Positions 33,090-38,718 of a DNA stretch of 64,000 bases are shown here, piece by piece (positions within the stretch are counted from its first letter, which is position 1; each line of letters starts with the position of its first letter). A program made the translations under genes and the position numbers. This stretch comes from Sneathiella chinensis (GTDB lineage Bacteria > Pseudomonadota > Alphaproteobacteria > Sneathiellales > Sneathiellaceae): positions 558,001-622,000 of the forward strand of contig NZ_VNWN01000004.1 of the NCBI RefSeq assembly GCF_012720115.1, written 5' to 3'. Below the pieces are notes generated by a model that was not told where the DNA came from, did no database searches, and worked only from the letters and a program-made list of their open reading frames with translations.

Positions 33090-35303
33090 ATGATTGAAGA
33101 CCGACTGATACAGGCACAGGTTCTTGTTCGGAAAAAAATCAAGGAACTCATCCTTCCGTTGCTGATTTTTGTCCTGGGCTCGTTCGGGCTGATTTTTTTC
33201 GGCATCTGGCAAACATCGGAAATTCAGGATGAACAGACGGTTGAATCCTCCAAATTCCTGCTGGAAACCCTGATCAAGGAAGAAAAGGCGGCTCTGGAGA
33301 CGCTGGTTTACGACTACGCCTACTGGCAGACCGCCCTTGAAAATCTTGTGGACACGCAGAATAGAGAATGGGCGCAGGACAATATCGGTCGGTACTTGCA
33401 GGAAACGTATGGTTTTGATGCCACTTTCGTTCTGGATGGGGAGAACCGCAGTGTGTTTTCCATCGAAAAGGGGGAAATCCTCTCGAAAGAGTTTTTGGCC
33501 TTTGTTCTGAACGGGGATGAGTTTGTCAGTCGGATCAGGACCGCCCGCGCCCTTGGCCGGAAAGCCCCCCTGTCGGAAGTGGTGCGATTGAAGTCCGGGG
33601 ATATGGCGCTGGTGGCGGCGGCAATGATTGAATCCGATTTGCAGGAAGTCGGTGCCGACGGCGCGGGCGCCTACCGCAAGTCTGATTATGTTCTGGTGCT
33701 GGTCAAGCCCATGGGCGAGCGGTTTATCGAGGCCATTTCCAAGCGCTTTTCCTTTACCGGTCTTGAGGCCGTCGCCGGCCCTGATGTGGAAGAACACAAG
33801 CGGGCCTATCTGTCGCTGACGGATGGGCGGGGCCGGGTTGTTGGTTATCTGGAATGGAGCCCGGCACTACAGGGGCCTGCCTTTATCTCGCTCTCTCTTC
33901 AGAATATCGCCTTTGCCGTCATACTGTTGTTTGGATTGATGGTTTTGATTGTCTTGCGGACCATGAAGCTGTTTCGCATGTTTGATACCCAGTATCGGGA
34001 TTACCTTGAGAACGAACAGAAAATGCGTCACTACGAAAGTGCCATTTCCGAACTGGTACAGGGGGAATTCCTGTATGAAATGACGGTGATTGAGGCGCTC
34101 AAGGAAATTGTCCGGAACGTGGCGGAAACCCTGAAAATCGACAAGGTCAGCATTTGGCAGATTGATATGGAACAGAACGCCCTTGTCAGTGCCTGCCGCT
34201 TTGATCGGGCAATCGGCGGGTTTCTGCCGGACCTGACATTGAAGGGGGAATTGCATCAGGATTTCTTCAAGGCCAGCCAGACAGGACATGAATTAAGCAT
34301 TGCCAATGTCTGGAAGGATCCCCTGACCCGAGGCCTTCGCAAAATCCGTTTCCCCGAGCAGGAGCCCCTTAGCCTGATCCAGATGCCGTTCTCGATCCGC
34401 GGGCGGCAGGAAGGGTTCATCAGCCTTGCCAAGCGGGAAAACGATTATGAATGGACCAAGGAAGAGCGGCGCTTTGTGCAGTCCATTTCGGATATTGTGA
34501 CCCTGATTTTTGAGGCCCATCTTAGGGACCAGATCGAACAGGAACTGCGCAAGGAGAAAAACAAGGCCGAGGCCGCCAATCTGGCCAAGACCGAGTTTCT
34601 GGCCAATATGAGCCACGAGCTGCGCACCCCCCTGAATGCGGTGATCGGCTTTTCCGATCTGATGCAGCAGAAAATTTTTGGGGAACTGGGGTCGCCGCGC
34701 TACGAGGATTATCTCAGTGATATCAATATGAGCGCCCGCCACCTGCTCAGTCTGATCAATGAAATCCTTGATGTGGCCAAGACCGAATCCGGGAAATACG
34801 AGATTTTCCCGACGGATGTGGATATCGCAACCGAGATCGATAGTGCGATCCGCCTGCTGCACGGACGTTTCAAGGACAAGAAATTCACGGTGGAAACCCG
34901 GCTGGCCGACGGGATCGGGACCATCAGCGCGGACCCGAAATGTTTCCGCCAGATCATCCTGAATATCCTGACCAATGCGGTCAAGTTTTCGGGCGATGAT
35001 TGCCTGATCGGGGTAACCGCGGACGTCAAGGGGGATGCAGTTGAATTCTCCTTCTCGGACAATGGCATCGGTATCCCCCGGGATCAGCTTGAAGAGGTTT
35101 TCAAGGCCTTCCACCAGATTGAGAGTGCCCTCAGCAAGACAACGGAAGGCACCGGTCTTGGGCTTGCCATTACAAAGGCGCTGGTGGAAATGCACCATGG
35201 CGGCATTGCCATCGAAAGCGAGCCGGGACAGGGCACCACAATCCGGGTCACCCTGCCGGTCAAGCAACCCGAAACCCGCGCCCGCGCAAGGGATGCTGCC
35301 TGA
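33090..35303 (+). CDS. Membrane-bound sensor histidine kinase with CHASE4-like and GAF domains
   Basis: Two-component sensor of 737 residues. Transmembrane span 1 (about 17-40, ILPLLIFVLGSFGLIFFGIW) and span 2 (about 267-292) enclose a periplasmic domain with the CHASE4-like motif ETLVYDYAYWQTALENLVD. A GAF-type domain follows (about 335-480), then a short coiled coil, HisKA with phospho-acceptor His509 in NMSHELRTPLNAVIGF, and HATPase (about 570-726) with SDNGIGIPRDQLEEVF and TGLGLAITKALVEMHHGG. No receiver domain and no response-regulator gene are nearby, so it is an orphan; ligand unknown. There is no obvious Shine-Dalgarno before the ATG. Confidence 0.9.
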   Translation: MIEDRLIQAQVLVRKKIKELILPLLIFVLGSFGLIFFGIWQTSEIQDEQTVESSKFLLETLIKEEKAALETLVYDYAYWQTALENLVDTQNREWAQDNIGRYLQETYGFDATFVLDGENRSVFSIEKGEILSKEFLAFVLNGDEFVSRIRTARALGRKAPLSEVVRLKSGDMALVAAAMIESDLQEVGADGAGAYRKSDYVLVLVKPMGERFIEAISKRFSFTGLEAVAGPDVEEHKRAYLSLTDGRGRVVGYLEWSPALQGPAFISLSLQNIAFAVILLFGLMVLIVLRTMKLFRMFDTQYRDYLENEQKMRHYESAISELVQGEFLYEMTVIEALKEIVRNVAETLKIDKVSIWQIDMEQNALVSACRFDRAIGGFLPDLTLKGELHQDFFKASQTGHELSIANVWKDPLTRGLRKIRFPEQEPLSLIQMPFSIRGRQEGFISLAKRENDYEWTKEERRFVQSISDIVTLIFEAHLRDQIEQELRKEKNKAEAANLAKTEFLANMSHELRTPLNAVIGFSDLMQQKIFGELGSPRYEDYLSDINMSARHLLSLINEILDVAKTESGKYEIFPTDVDIATEIDSAIRLLHGRFKDKKFTVETRLADGIGTISADPKCFRQIILNILTNAVKFSGDDCLIGVTADVKGDAVEFSFSDNGIGIPRDQLEEVFKAFHQIESALSKTTEGTGLGLAITKALVEMHHGGIAIESEPGQGTTIRVTLPVKQPETRARARDAA

Positions 35304-35390: not shown

Positions 35391-35780
35391 TCACTCTAAT
35401 TTAAAAGTGCAATGTCCGGTTTCTTCATCTAGGTAGGTAACCTTCCATTTTTGGTTACGTCGTTTTTTGGGGTGCCAGGGGTCGGCCTCTTTATAGCCTC
35501 TTTCAGGGCTGCCGGTTACAATGACCATATCCACATTGCCATTGAAGTCGGAGAGTGCTCGTTGCAAATGTTTGGTACGCTTTTTGTTCCCGGACTTGCG
35601 CCCCCATTCTTCATGTGGGGCACCAAATAGCTTGGAGTCAAAGGTCAGTACATTATCTATTTTCTTTATTTCTTGTTGCCAAACAGCTACGCAGATTCCA
35701 TCGTCTTTCTCAGCGCTCCAGTCTTGGCGAGGCGAAATAAGATCGTATCCTAATTTTTTGAATGCTTCTGTATACGTCAT
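35391..35780 (-). CDS. Unknown protein, island gene C
   Basis: A 129-residue soluble protein I do not recognise. The N-terminal half contains ICVAVWQQEIKKIDNVLTFD. A basic central part, GRKSGNKKRTKHLQRALSDF, leads to VDMVIVTGSPERG and then a C-terminal WKVTYLDEETGHCTFKLE that looks like a beta-rich ending. AAGGA lies eight bases before the ATG, supporting expression. GC content is visibly below the flanks. It is the last of three same-strand genes; a nucleic-acid role is conceivable from the basic region and its neighbour but is speculative. Confidence 0.6.
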   Translation of the reverse strand: MTYTEAFKKLGYDLISPRQDWSAEKDDGICVAVWQQEIKKIDNVLTFDSKLFGAPHEEWGRKSGNKKRTKHLQRALSDFNGNVDMVIVTGSPERGYKEADPWHPKKRRNQKWKVTYLDEETGHCTFKLE

Positions 35781-35827
35781 GATTTTTTCCTTGCTAAGTA
35801 GTGCTTAAAATAATTGGTTTGTTTAAC

Positions 35828-36472
35828 TTAAAGTTTGCCCAATAAGTTCTTTACTTCTTTCATGCACTCGACTGCTTGAAGTTTGGGGCAGTTGATGGAA
35901 AGGTGGTGGCAATAGATTGCGGGAATGCCCTGCCACTCGCCACGACCGAAAGTCATGTGGTTTTGTTTATGTTCAAATTTGCAATCTTGCCATTCTATAT
36001 TGAACGCTTGAGAAGCCTTGTCTCCGAAAATGAGGATTGCTTTTGGTGATTGCGCCATTAATAAGCGTTTGTTCCAATTTAGAGAAAAATCTCGCCAGAC
36101 CTTTCTGGGGCCAGTCTTCGGGTGCTCCCACATGCGAGCTTCCTGAGTGGGGGCAGAGGGGAAAATTGCGGCATGGGCAACTGTTCTTTCGAACAGTGTT
36201 TTTCGCAATCCCGCTTGAGCCATATATTTTCTTAGTATTTGGCCAAATCTATATGTATCGTTGAGGTAAAGAAGTTGGCTTGGTGCCTCGCGTTGAATGG
36301 ATTTGTCTTCGCCGCCACCTTGAAATGTTATGAGTGCTAGGTCCGGGGTATCGGCAAGGGGGGCATATAGGGGATTTAGTCCATGTTGTACGACGCTTGC
36401 GAGTTCTTTATCCTCTAACATTTTTCCAACTTCTGCATACAGTTCCTCGGATAAAACGGTGAGCTTGGTCAT
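35828..36472 (-). CDS. Uracil-DNA-glycosylase-like protein of unknown function, island gene B
   Basis: A 214-residue protein with weak features of the uracil-DNA glycosylase superfamily: LALITFQGGGED (residues 45-56) resembles the catalytic-water motif region, KAILIFGDKASQAF (144-157) resembles the conserved strand-helix of the family, and HHLSINCP (189-196) sits where the HPS-type minor-groove loop would be. Four cysteines (164, 188, 195, 203) fall in the C-terminal fifth and could hold metal, although their spacing is not that of known iron-sulfur UDGs. AAAGGA precedes the ATG. It is the middle gene of the low-GC island. The family call is tentative; an unrelated alpha/beta fold is possible. 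Confidence 0.55.
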   Translation of the reverse strand: MTKLTVLSEELYAEVGKMLEDKELASVVQHGLNPLYAPLADTPDLALITFQGGGEDKSIQREAPSQLLYLNDTYRFGQILRKYMAQAGLRKTLFERTVAHAAIFPSAPTQEARMWEHPKTGPRKVWRDFSLNWNKRLLMAQSPKAILIFGDKASQAFNIEWQDCKFEHKQNHMTFGRGEWQGIPAIYCHHLSINCPKLQAVECMKEVKNLLGKL

Positions 36473-36629
36473 GATCGTTTCCTTTAGGTATAGTTGTAGG
36501 TGCTTTGAAGAAGCTGTTCTCTAAAGCTTTTGAGAAAATACATTTTGAAATTGATTGATATGGGTGCGCTAAGCCTTTGTAGGCTCAAGGTGATCTGGCT
36601 ACTGTTGAGTGTTCAGTGTTCCCGTGAAA

Positions 36630-37379
36630 CTAATTTTTTGTTGCCTCAGGTCGTTTCAGTTTTAGGTATTCTGAAAACTGTAAAGATGGCCTTTCGTGTT
36701 TGTTTTCCGGTGAGGTGTATGGTGTGTCTATATCAATCCCGGCATGTATTAGAATGAGAATGCAATCATCGTCTCGGAGGGCGGAGGTATCGGAAAAATT
36801 CTGCTCTGTTCCAAAGGGGTGGTGGTTGCGAATATATTTGGCTTTTATCCACTCCGTCTTTTGAAATTTACATTCGAGGTCGTTCCATGCGTTCCGGTTG
36901 GTTCCTCCAGCAACTTCGTTTGCAAAATGAGAAGGGGAGAATTTCTGTTCGTTTACAAAAAGAGAGCCGTGACGAACTGTTGCAAGATCTAAGTCTAAAT
37001 TTTTGTGTTTACCTTTATAGCGGGAGCGGACAAGTGTGCCGTTAGGAAGCCATGCACTTCCCCACCACATGCCCTCCCCGTATCGTCCCCAATAACTTTC
37101 CCAATCCGCTTTCATAAGTGCAAATTTATGCGGGGTGATGCCGAAAAGAGTAATGCTATCCTCATGTTGAAATTGGTTTGAAAGGTGTTCCGCAAGCACG
37201 TCATATATATATGCGGCTGGGCTAATTTTTCCCTCTGACAGATGGAAAATCGCGGCGCATTGATCTATGTGCACAGGTATGCTTACAAATTCAGACGGGT
37301 TTTTGGGTAGTCTTTCGACGATCCCTTCTTCTGAGTGCAGGCTTGTGTGCGAGAAAAAGTCAAATTTCAATACAGACAT
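36630..37379 (-). CDS. Unknown protein, island gene A
   Basis: A 249-residue protein without recognisable family. It has a tryptophan/glycine-rich centre (ADWESYWGRYGEGMWWGSAW), followed by a basic stretch RSRYKGKHKNLDLDLATVRH, and a C-terminal NHHPFGTEQNF region. No signal peptide or membrane span is evident. It is the promoter-proximal gene of the three-gene unit: a good sigma-70-like promoter lies just upstream and GGGA precedes the ATG. Base composition is roughly 40% GC by eye versus about 60% in flanking genes, indicating acquisition from elsewhere. Confidence 0.6.
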   Translation of the reverse strand: MSVLKFDFFSHTSLHSEEGIVERLPKNPSEFVSIPVHIDQCAAIFHLSEGKISPAAYIYDVLAEHLSNQFQHEDSITLFGITPHKFALMKADWESYWGRYGEGMWWGSAWLPNGTLVRSRYKGKHKNLDLDLATVRHGSLFVNEQKFSPSHFANEVAGGTNRNAWNDLECKFQKTEWIKAKYIRNHHPFGTEQNFSDTSALRDDDCILILIHAGIDIDTPYTSPENKHERPSLQFSEYLKLKRPEATKN

Positions 37380-37406
37380 GAATGTTTTCCCTAGTGTTGT
37401 TTTGCA

Positions 37407-37435
37407 ACAATAGCATGAGAATTTTCTTATGTAAA
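37407..37435 (-). promoter_or_regulatory. Predicted promoter of the low-GC island
   Basis: On the minus strand TTTACA (37435-37430) and TATTGT (37412-37407) are separated by exactly 17 bases, 28 bases before the ATG of island gene A. The wider 343-base gap (37380-37722) is AT-rich and holds no gene that I can support; a small hairpin TCGAC-N8-GTCGA lies near 37540. Confidence 0.5.
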
Positions 37436-37722: not shown

Positions 37723-38718
37723 TCAGGTGCGGACCCGGCGTTCCTCGCTGGGGGTATGGCCGAAATGTTCGCGGTGGCATTTTGAAAAATGCGATGCGGA
37801 TACAAAACCGCAGGCCAGCGCCACCTCGATAATGGGCAGGCTGGTCTGGGTCAGAAGATACCGCGCCCGATCCAGCCGCAATTTCAGGTAATAGCGGGTG
37901 GGGGAGCGTTTCAGGTATTTCTGGAACAGGCGCTCCAGTTGCCGGGTCGACAGGCCCACTTCCGTTGCAAGGTCACTGCAACTGAGGGGGTCTTCCAGAT
38001 TGTCTTCCATACAGGAAATGGCGGCCAGAAGTTTGGGGTGGGAAATTCCCAGCCGGGCCCTCAGTTCCATGCGCTGGCGTTCCGACCCGTCGCGAATACG
38101 GTGATGGATCAACTGGTCGGCAACGGCAAGGGCCGCTTCATGATCGATCTGGCTGGAAATCAGCGACAGCATCATATCAAGGGACGCTGTTCCCCCGGCG
38201 CAGGTATACCGGTTGCCATCAATCTCGAACAGTTCCGTGGTAATCTCCAGATCGGGGAAATCCTCGCGGAAACCGGATGTGTTTTCCCAGTGGATGGTGC
38301 AGCGATGCCCGTCCAGCATGCCCGCCCGGGCCAGCACGTAAGAGCCTGTGCAGATCGCACCGATATCGGCGCCATAGGATGCGGCCTTCCTGAGTGCGGT
38401 CATCACTTCCGGGGTGCAGCGGGCCTGGATGTCCAGTCCCCCGCACAGAAAGACAATGCTGTGTTTCGGCATATCCGAAAAGCTGCCAGCCACCGGGATT
38501 TCCAGCCCGGCGCTGCTGCGGGCCGGGGCACCGTCTTCCGAATAGCATTTCCAGTCATAGATCTGCCGCCCGGCTGTGCGGTTGGCCAGACGCAACGGTT
38601 CAATCGCCGAGATAAAGGCAAGTGACGAGAAGTCGGGGACCAGACAAAAACCGATACTATATTGTGCTGTTGCCCCTTCCATCTTGTCGAAGGAAAGGGT
38701 TGTGCCTGAACTGTTCAT
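37723..38718 (-). CDS. GlxA-family AraC-type regulator (GbdR/CdhR-like)
   Basis: Transcription activator of 331 residues. It has an N-terminal DJ-1/PfpI-like domain (about 10-180; GFCLVPDFSSLAFISAIEPL, SIVFLCGGLDIQ and AICTGSYVLARAG), then a C-terminal double AraC helix-turn-helix (about 225-325; CSDLATEVGLSTRQLERLFQ and LACGFVSASHFSKCHREHFG). This architecture includes the glycine betaine regulator GbdR and the carnitine regulator CdhR. Neighbouring fhs and soxBDAG genes make control of methylated-amine catabolism plausible. The start is uncertain, since neither ATG 38718 nor TTG 38736 has a clear ribosome site. Confidence 0.87.
   Translation of the reverse strand: MNSSGTTLSFDKMEGATAQYSIGFCLVPDFSSLAFISAIEPLRLANRTAGRQIYDWKCYSEDGAPARSSAGLEIPVAGSFSDMPKHSIVFLCGGLDIQARCTPEVMTALRKAASYGADIGAICTGSYVLARAGMLDGHRCTIHWENTSGFREDFPDLEITTELFEIDGNRYTCAGGTASLDMMLSLISSQIDHEAALAVADQLIHHRIRDGSERQRMELRARLGISHPKLLAAISCMEDNLEDPLSCSDLATEVGLSTRQLERLFQKYLKRSPTRYYLKLRLDRARYLLTQTSLPIIEVALACGFVSASHFSKCHREHFGHTPSEERRVRT

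Follow-up and report, generated by a model that had tools for sequence, protein, structure and literature searches.

We analyzed a 64,000-nucleotide stretch of the Sneathiella chinensis genome, here called the window, and in it an island of three minus-strand genes, A, B and C, that lies between a histidine kinase gene and an AraC gene (Table 1). An initial annotation had suggested that these genes, behind one sigma-70-like promoter, may form a compact defense or DNA-processing operon. The three open reading frames (ORFs) were found where it had placed them, each with a Shine-Dalgarno-like stretch at its start (AGGGAAAACATTCATG, AAAGGAAACGATCATG and AAGGAAAAAATCATG). A and B are separated by 157 bp and B and C by 47 bp; the A–B gap holds no terminator-like site on the minus strand, and one such site lies inside B. 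The sigma-70-like site upstream of A also exists, but four such sites occurred in the window versus 3.6 expected, a chance-level count.

The island stands out in composition. Guanine-plus-cytosine (GC) content was 0.441 in A, 0.459 in B and 0.446 in C compared with 0.568 for the whole window, and the minimum-GC segment of 1,989 bases (0.432; n = 249 segments) begins at position 35751, within the island. This is the lowest-GC stretch of the window; flanks near 60% GC, as initially described, were found on the right only (57–61%, versus 52–57% on the left). In the codon-use and GC profile that the initial annotation had recommended, all three genes were among the five most unusual of 52 ORFs of at least 120 codons, a set of which some members may not be genes. 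A foreign origin of the island is supported.

No tRNA or tmRNA was found in the window and no Rfam match between positions 35000 and 38000. Likewise, Pfam searches of eleven flanking proteins (the part of the window covered for this purpose) revealed no integrase or transposase, in agreement with the earlier description of the island borders. None of the three proteins had a match above cut-off in Pfam or NCBIfam or a convincing one in PADLOC or PHROGs, and sequence searches of the PDB returned weak, chance-looking rows only (lowest E: A, 0.2; B, 0.13; C, 0.11; profile of B, 0.31).

Table 1 Features of the island (window positions) and segments of protein B (residues)
Feature	Position	Strand	Description
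Gene A	36630..37379	minus	249 aa; tentative ribbon-helix-helix (RHH)-like N-terminal segment (~residues 30–70, by eye) and RAMA/DUF2924-like domain (~residues 105–185)
Gene B	35828..36472	minus	214 aa; predicted uracil-DNA glycosylase (UDG)-fold protein
Gene C	35391..35780	minus	129 aa; predicted PUA/SRA-like domain (tentative)
Sigma-70-like site TTTACA-N17-TATTGT	37407..37435	minus	Just upstream of A; TG precedes the -10 element
Replaced segment	35304..37722	none	From histidine kinase stop to AraC stop; same-genus comparison
Motif-1-like FQGGGEDK of B	residues 50–57		Motif name is our own assignment
Segment SPKAILIFGDKAS of B	residues 142–154		Between the two motif-like segments
Motif-2-like HHLS of B	residues 189–192		Motif name is our own assignment

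The island site in same-genus genomes

A DNA search of the genus covered 24 genomes including that of S. chinensis, and nine stretches were then compared. In at least 15 of the 23 other genomes, the match begins at the AraC end (37729–37739) and extends away from the island. A gene that matches the pterin-binding portion of a 1,243-aa protein encoded in the window lies 2–3 kb from AraC on the island side in all seven AraC-bearing stretches. The whole interval from histidine kinase to AraC could be read in one genome of this comparison (L021, 3974–14467; ~10.5 kb), where it encodes MTTB, a DAO/GCV_T dehydrogenase, a B12-binding protein, DUF1638, MTHFR, a pterin-binding protein and a RACo-type activator. 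Three stretches contain the histidine kinase: the cluster adjoins it in L021, a similar-looking ORF was seen by eye in L019, and L023 ends ~0.8 kb beyond the kinase. No MTTB family match was found in the S. chinensis genome (none in the one genome, 99.27% complete). This absence, together with the one-carbon genes at the site in relatives, suggests the loss of a corrinoid methyltransferase/one-carbon cluster whose position the 2.4-kb A–B–C segment now occupies. The comparison with close relatives that had been suggested thus indicated a replaced site. No convincing direct repeats were found at the edges of the island.

Further observations concern the neighbors. At the edge of the island, the CHASE4 histidine kinase (33090–35303) shares just 45–52% identity with the corresponding kinases of three same-genus stretches, compared with 74–81% in seven stretches for AraC and FTHFS beside the island. 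AraC and FTHFS adjoin each other in the window and in six other AraC-bearing stretches; in genome G001 they are ~3.6 kb apart (L025, 9464–13087), possibly marking a second insertion point.

Predicted folds and relatives of the three proteins

B had been described as UDG-like on weak sequence features, and the UDG fold is supported by its predicted model. An AlphaFold model built from a two-sequence alignment (predicted local distance difference test (pLDDT) 72, predicted template modeling score 0.71) had as its first PDB match in Foldseek the Thermus thermophilus UDG 1ui1 (probability 0.96, E = 0.017). All 50 rows listed by VIA-align belonged to the UDG superfamily (Z = 5.8–8.0), the best being 1ui0 (Z = 8.0, 136 residues, root mean square deviation (rmsd) 4.0); by the tool's own note Z below 8 can reflect a common arrangement, and no unrelated fold was among those 50. 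In the BFVD database nothing matched at E ≤ 0.001, and five weak rows among the 50 listed named phage UDGs. A pattern-based scan of genome contigs identified one relative of B, L002, which is 40% identical, comes from a gammaproteobacterial metagenome-assembled genome and has the motifs FQGGGEDK, LLYLxDxYRFG, FGR and CHHLS in common with B. QGGGEDK and HHLS, where the motif-1 acidic residue and the motif-2 histidine of UDGs would be sought, are identical in both known sequences (n = 2), the first of them in a loop modeled at pLDDT <50. L002 scored 18.7 bits (E = 0.002) against the Pfam UDG family, still under the cut-off.

Besides B, the S. chinensis genome encodes three UDGs above the Pfam cut-off, to which B would thus be an addition. 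Aligned to the last 170 residues of one UDG-family protein of this genome, L047, B scored 59 where shuffled sequences averaged 29 (z = 6.4; none of 500 shuffles did as well). L002 reached z = 8.5, and A and C were unremarkable (z = 1.1 and 0.0). L002 gave z = 3.5 and −0.5 against the other two UDGs.

The initial annotation had also pointed to four C-terminal cysteines in B. These exist (residues 164, 188, 195 and 203), but just Cys188 is kept in L002, so they carry no weight. Family 4 UDGs hold an Fe–S cluster with four cysteine ligands; because the cysteines are not conserved, we dropped the assignment of B to this Fe–S family. A PADLOC match of B to CARF (E = 0.011) and a Cas11 match in the PDB sequence search (E = 0.13) were considered chance.

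A UDG fold would also suit a DNA-repair enzyme that removes damaged bases (uracil, hydroxymethyluracil or hypoxanthine), acquired together with two DNA-binding helpers and without an anti-phage role, and the sole relative of B does lie amid metabolic-looking genes (by eye). We consider this unlikely: the genome already has its three UDGs, the genes and their relatives are patchily distributed and low in GC, and the literature presents PUA/SRA and RAMA domains as reader components of restriction systems (PMC12707154, PMC11037411).

A is best understood through intermediate relatives, which support the presence of a RAMA-like domain. A relative on a Rhizobium leguminosarum plasmid matched DUF2924 (E = 0.007) and RAMA (PF18755; E = 0.06), and a two-sequence profile then recovered four further relatives among 385 genomes: L036, L037, L038 (E = 2.6 × 10−9) and L039 (E = 0.002; profile search only, not recovered by tblastn). 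RAMA matched L037 (E = 0.005), L038 (E = 2.1 × 10−4) and L039 (E = 7.5 × 10−6) but not L036, and in L038 and L039 it covers the same stretch as A; the RAMA, DUF2924, DUF4357 and SeqA_N scores of all A relatives fall under the Pfam cut-offs, the DUF2924 and DUF4357 matches likewise covering the stretch of the RAMA-like domain. A six-sequence alignment has the pattern LPNGTxLRxxYxG...SPSxxAxxVAxGTxRNAWxD in common. L038 lies where a short contig ends; this protein combines the A-type domain with an MTES_1575 nuclease domain and matches PADLOC families PDC-S37 and Hhe. RAMA is a proposed modified-base reader (PMC11037411; PMC12839542), although the 6-methyladenine preference of MPND could not be confirmed (PMC11037411). 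Searches of phages with A returned two Listeria records only (E = 0.8 and 0.9); the L036 relative found the same Rhizobium record among plasmids and nothing else, and the L037 relative found none.

The N-terminus of A and several relatives resembles, by eye, the strand and two helices of an RHH segment, a tentative assignment for which the only score is the SeqA_N match (E = 1.2 × 10−4) that precedes the RAMA-like domain in L039 (8321–8740; 139 aa). Such an N-terminus raises the alternative that the island is a toxin–antitoxin system or repressor-controlled cargo, with A as autorepressor or antitoxin and B or C toxic to the host. The SeqA_N match would agree with this, as would L036 (8788–9581), where a 117-aa ORF that weakly matches DUF4258 (E = 0.13) and the gene of the A relative overlap in a toxin–antitoxin-like arrangement. 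Since neither B nor C matches a toxin family, and the UDG fold of B indicates DNA chemistry, we regard it as very unlikely.

For C, structure prediction provides a tentative PUA/SRA-like fold. The first 15 VIA-align rows for its model comprised eight chains of SUVH-type SRA domains or modification-dependent restriction enzymes (3q0f, 4qep, 4qen, 4par, 6a5k, 4nj5, 4oc8 and 4rzl), the other seven being Lon N-terminal chains. Lower rows held MspJI and SauUSI among unrelated folds. AbaSI, AspBHI and LpnPI contain SRA-like domains, and the Lon N-terminal domain has a PUA-like fold. On the SUVH5 SRA domain, 102 of 129 residues were superposed (Z = 5.6, rmsd 3.9); with Z at most 5.6, the fold of C is just a lead. 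The MspJI family is SRA-like, and the PUA class consists of modified-base readers (PMC12707154). Relatives of C are L040 (53% identity) and L041 (~30%), and a weak match of 41 residues was seen in G088. We rejected a match in L042 (E = 0.0099) because it is antisense within a long rpoC-looking ORF (by eye), and attributed a Pfam Ig_Rha78A_N match of L040 (E = 0.0021, under the cut-off) to chance.

Gene neighborhoods and a possible joint function

The genome searches drew overlapping sets of genomes, so counts stand per search. With the own genome counted, A was found in 1 of 30 and in 5 of 385 genomes, and C in 4 of 385 and in 3 of 398. GC content was lower in the relative than in its locus in all six cases measured (L002, L004, L036, L037, L040 and L041), by 0.02–0.18, as expected of mobile cargo. 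The A relative on the Rhizobium plasmid has an AbiJ-type gene ~1.1 kb upstream (AbiJ_NTD3, Abi_C; PADLOC AbiJ E = 1.2 × 10−19), and the L036 relative matches the candidate defense family PDC-S57 (PADLOC E = 0.0014). The C relative in L041 (6382–8197) adjoins a D12-class methyltransferase (PADLOC MTase_II E = 2 × 10−111) and a 302-aa ORF that has no convincing Pfam or PADLOC match and is possibly an undescribed restriction enzyme. Searches with B among plasmids and phages, and with L002 among plasmids, returned nothing useful; those with C, L041 and L040 among plasmids, C among phages, and A, B, C and alignments of B and C among viral contigs returned nothing useful.

Taking these results together, we tentatively favor, at somewhat short of an even chance, a base-excision module of three genes that was acquired horizontally and is directed against modified DNA entering the cell. 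This account, the simplest to employ all three parts, is modeled on Brig1 and Brig3/BapA. B, as a divergent enzyme of the UDG superfamily, would flip out and remove a non-canonical base of invading phage or plasmid DNA, probably a modified pyrimidine; the abasic sites left behind would block replication. C would be a PUA/SRA-like reader of the modified base or modified strand, and A an RHH–RAMA DNA-binding protein that may read the modification, repress the operon or both. In this account we infer co-transcription and co-operation of the three genes, the substrate and anti-phage role, and the part of C as a reader.

Several results weigh against this account. B scored 14.4 bits (E = 0.04) against Pfam UDG (PF03167), below the curated cut-off of 24.3 bits, and A and C themselves had no Pfam match. 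Against the other two UDGs of its genome, 413 and 411 of 500 shuffles scored as well as B, hhalign of B with all three gave Probab 0.05, and a MAFFT alignment of the five was likewise uninformative. Foldseek listed nothing for the B model at E = 0.001 or lower, with UDG rows at template modeling scores of 0.27–0.48 and unrelated folds intermixed, and the motif-1 loop is modeled below pLDDT 50. Judged by eye, B does not have the Asn with which family 4 UDGs read the base (N82 in Sulfolobus; PMC11078745) where it would be expected, an absence that would be compatible with a target base different from uracil. The five C models ranged from a best pLDDT of 69.6 through 57.8 down to 35.6, with nothing significant in Foldseek and a best Z in the range that VIA-align calls common. 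In the genome searches B was found in its own genome only (1 of 60, 1 of 398 and 1 of 298), the A–B–C order was not found elsewhere, each of nine loci searched holding at most one of the three genes, and L002 stands alone among its metabolic-looking neighbors. The contexts of L036, L037, L040 and L002 look ordinary by eye (one L036 ORF being the only neighbor scanned). Finally, PADLOC detected no convincing defense match in the ten genes flanking the island; a PDC-M43B match of the histidine kinase was read as a shared ATPase domain, and a 1,068-aa ORF weakly matched a C3a186 model.

The initial annotation is thus partly supported. A theme of DNA modification, the foreign origin and the UDG fold of B have support; with no conserved order, a B relative on its own and no convincing defense gene among the ten flanking genes searched, one A–B–C operon with a defense function remains hypothetical. 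Of the two outcomes named beforehand as counter-evidence, a structure prediction lacking the UDG fold was not obtained, and homologues that never co-occur and sit in ordinary contexts are in part what these loci show.

The same pattern fits a rival explanation, namely that three unrelated accessory genes came to lie next to one another where gene content varies and act independently, with A a regulator that senses modification, B a glycosylase working on its own and C a restriction accessory or a reader. Relatives that were found one at a time, the length of the A–B gap and a site that differs between this genome and its relatives are all consistent with it. Nonetheless, the genes lie on one strand with a short gap between B and C and no terminator-like site between A and B on that strand, are alike in GC (0.44–0.46) and have modified-base recognition as a common theme; we regard independent genes as quite possible, though somewhat less likely than the module.

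The base-excision module can be given a narrower form, in which modification-dependent restriction proceeds by base excision and not by strand cutting, and two stand-alone readers (RHH–RAMA and SRA-like) direct or license a UDG-fold glycosylase. We find this form rather doubtful. In the literature searched, as far as its text was available, no glycosylase with RAMA or SRA partners and no three-gene reader-plus-glycosylase module was found. Glycosylase-based immunity is itself a young concept, represented by few systems (Brig1, Brig2 and Brig3; PMC13160076). If the module is real, the island would supply a divergent glycosylase that stays below the thresholds of the libraries searched here, and it would join such an enzyme to types of reader domain reported until now alongside nucleases; if just the fold of B is right, B would still represent a family with the UDG fold, of which a single distant relative is known.

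Comparison with known systems

PabI-family enzymes likewise restrict DNA via base excision and abasic sites (PMC10273834), but they have a HALFPIPE fold and act within restriction-modification systems, whereas B is predicted to be UDG-like and the island contains no methyltransferase gene. C resembles the SRA readers (the SUVH SRA domains, AbaSI, AspBHI, LpnPI and MspJI) in predicted fold; it differs in having neither a sequence match to them nor a fused nuclease, and the Z score is too low for proof. A has the alignment pattern described above in common with RAMA (PF18755)/DUF2924 proteins, but has no Pfam match of its own, another N-terminal segment and no nuclease fusion.

In its predicted fold and in the positions of a GED-type loop and a late histidine motif (our own assignment), B is comparable to family 4 UDGs (Thermus, Sulfolobus), UdgX and MUG/TDG. 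It departs from them in its score below the Pfam cut-off, the change of HPS to HHLS, the lack of conserved Fe–S cysteines and the apparent absence of the base-reading Asn (by eye).

Among the closest counterparts are also Brig1 and Brig3, UDG-fold proteins that excise modified bases of T-even phages (PMC11078745; PMC13160076). Brig1 excises alpha-glucosyl-5-hydroxymethylcytosine and has UDGs as its nearest folds (PMC11078745), and Brig3 acts with BapA, the product of a second gene in its operon (PMC13160076). Compared by description, the island differs in the neighbors of B, where a RAMA-like and an SRA/PUA-like protein take the place of a glucosyl hydrolase, and in lying outside a recognized defense island (PADLOC, ten flanking genes), a location that is common for Brig-type glycosylases though not required. 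B nevertheless resembles both proteins in its predicted UDG fold, its weak sequence similarity to UDGs, its place outside the housekeeping UDG set and its membership of an operon-like group of genes (PMC11078745; PMC13160076).

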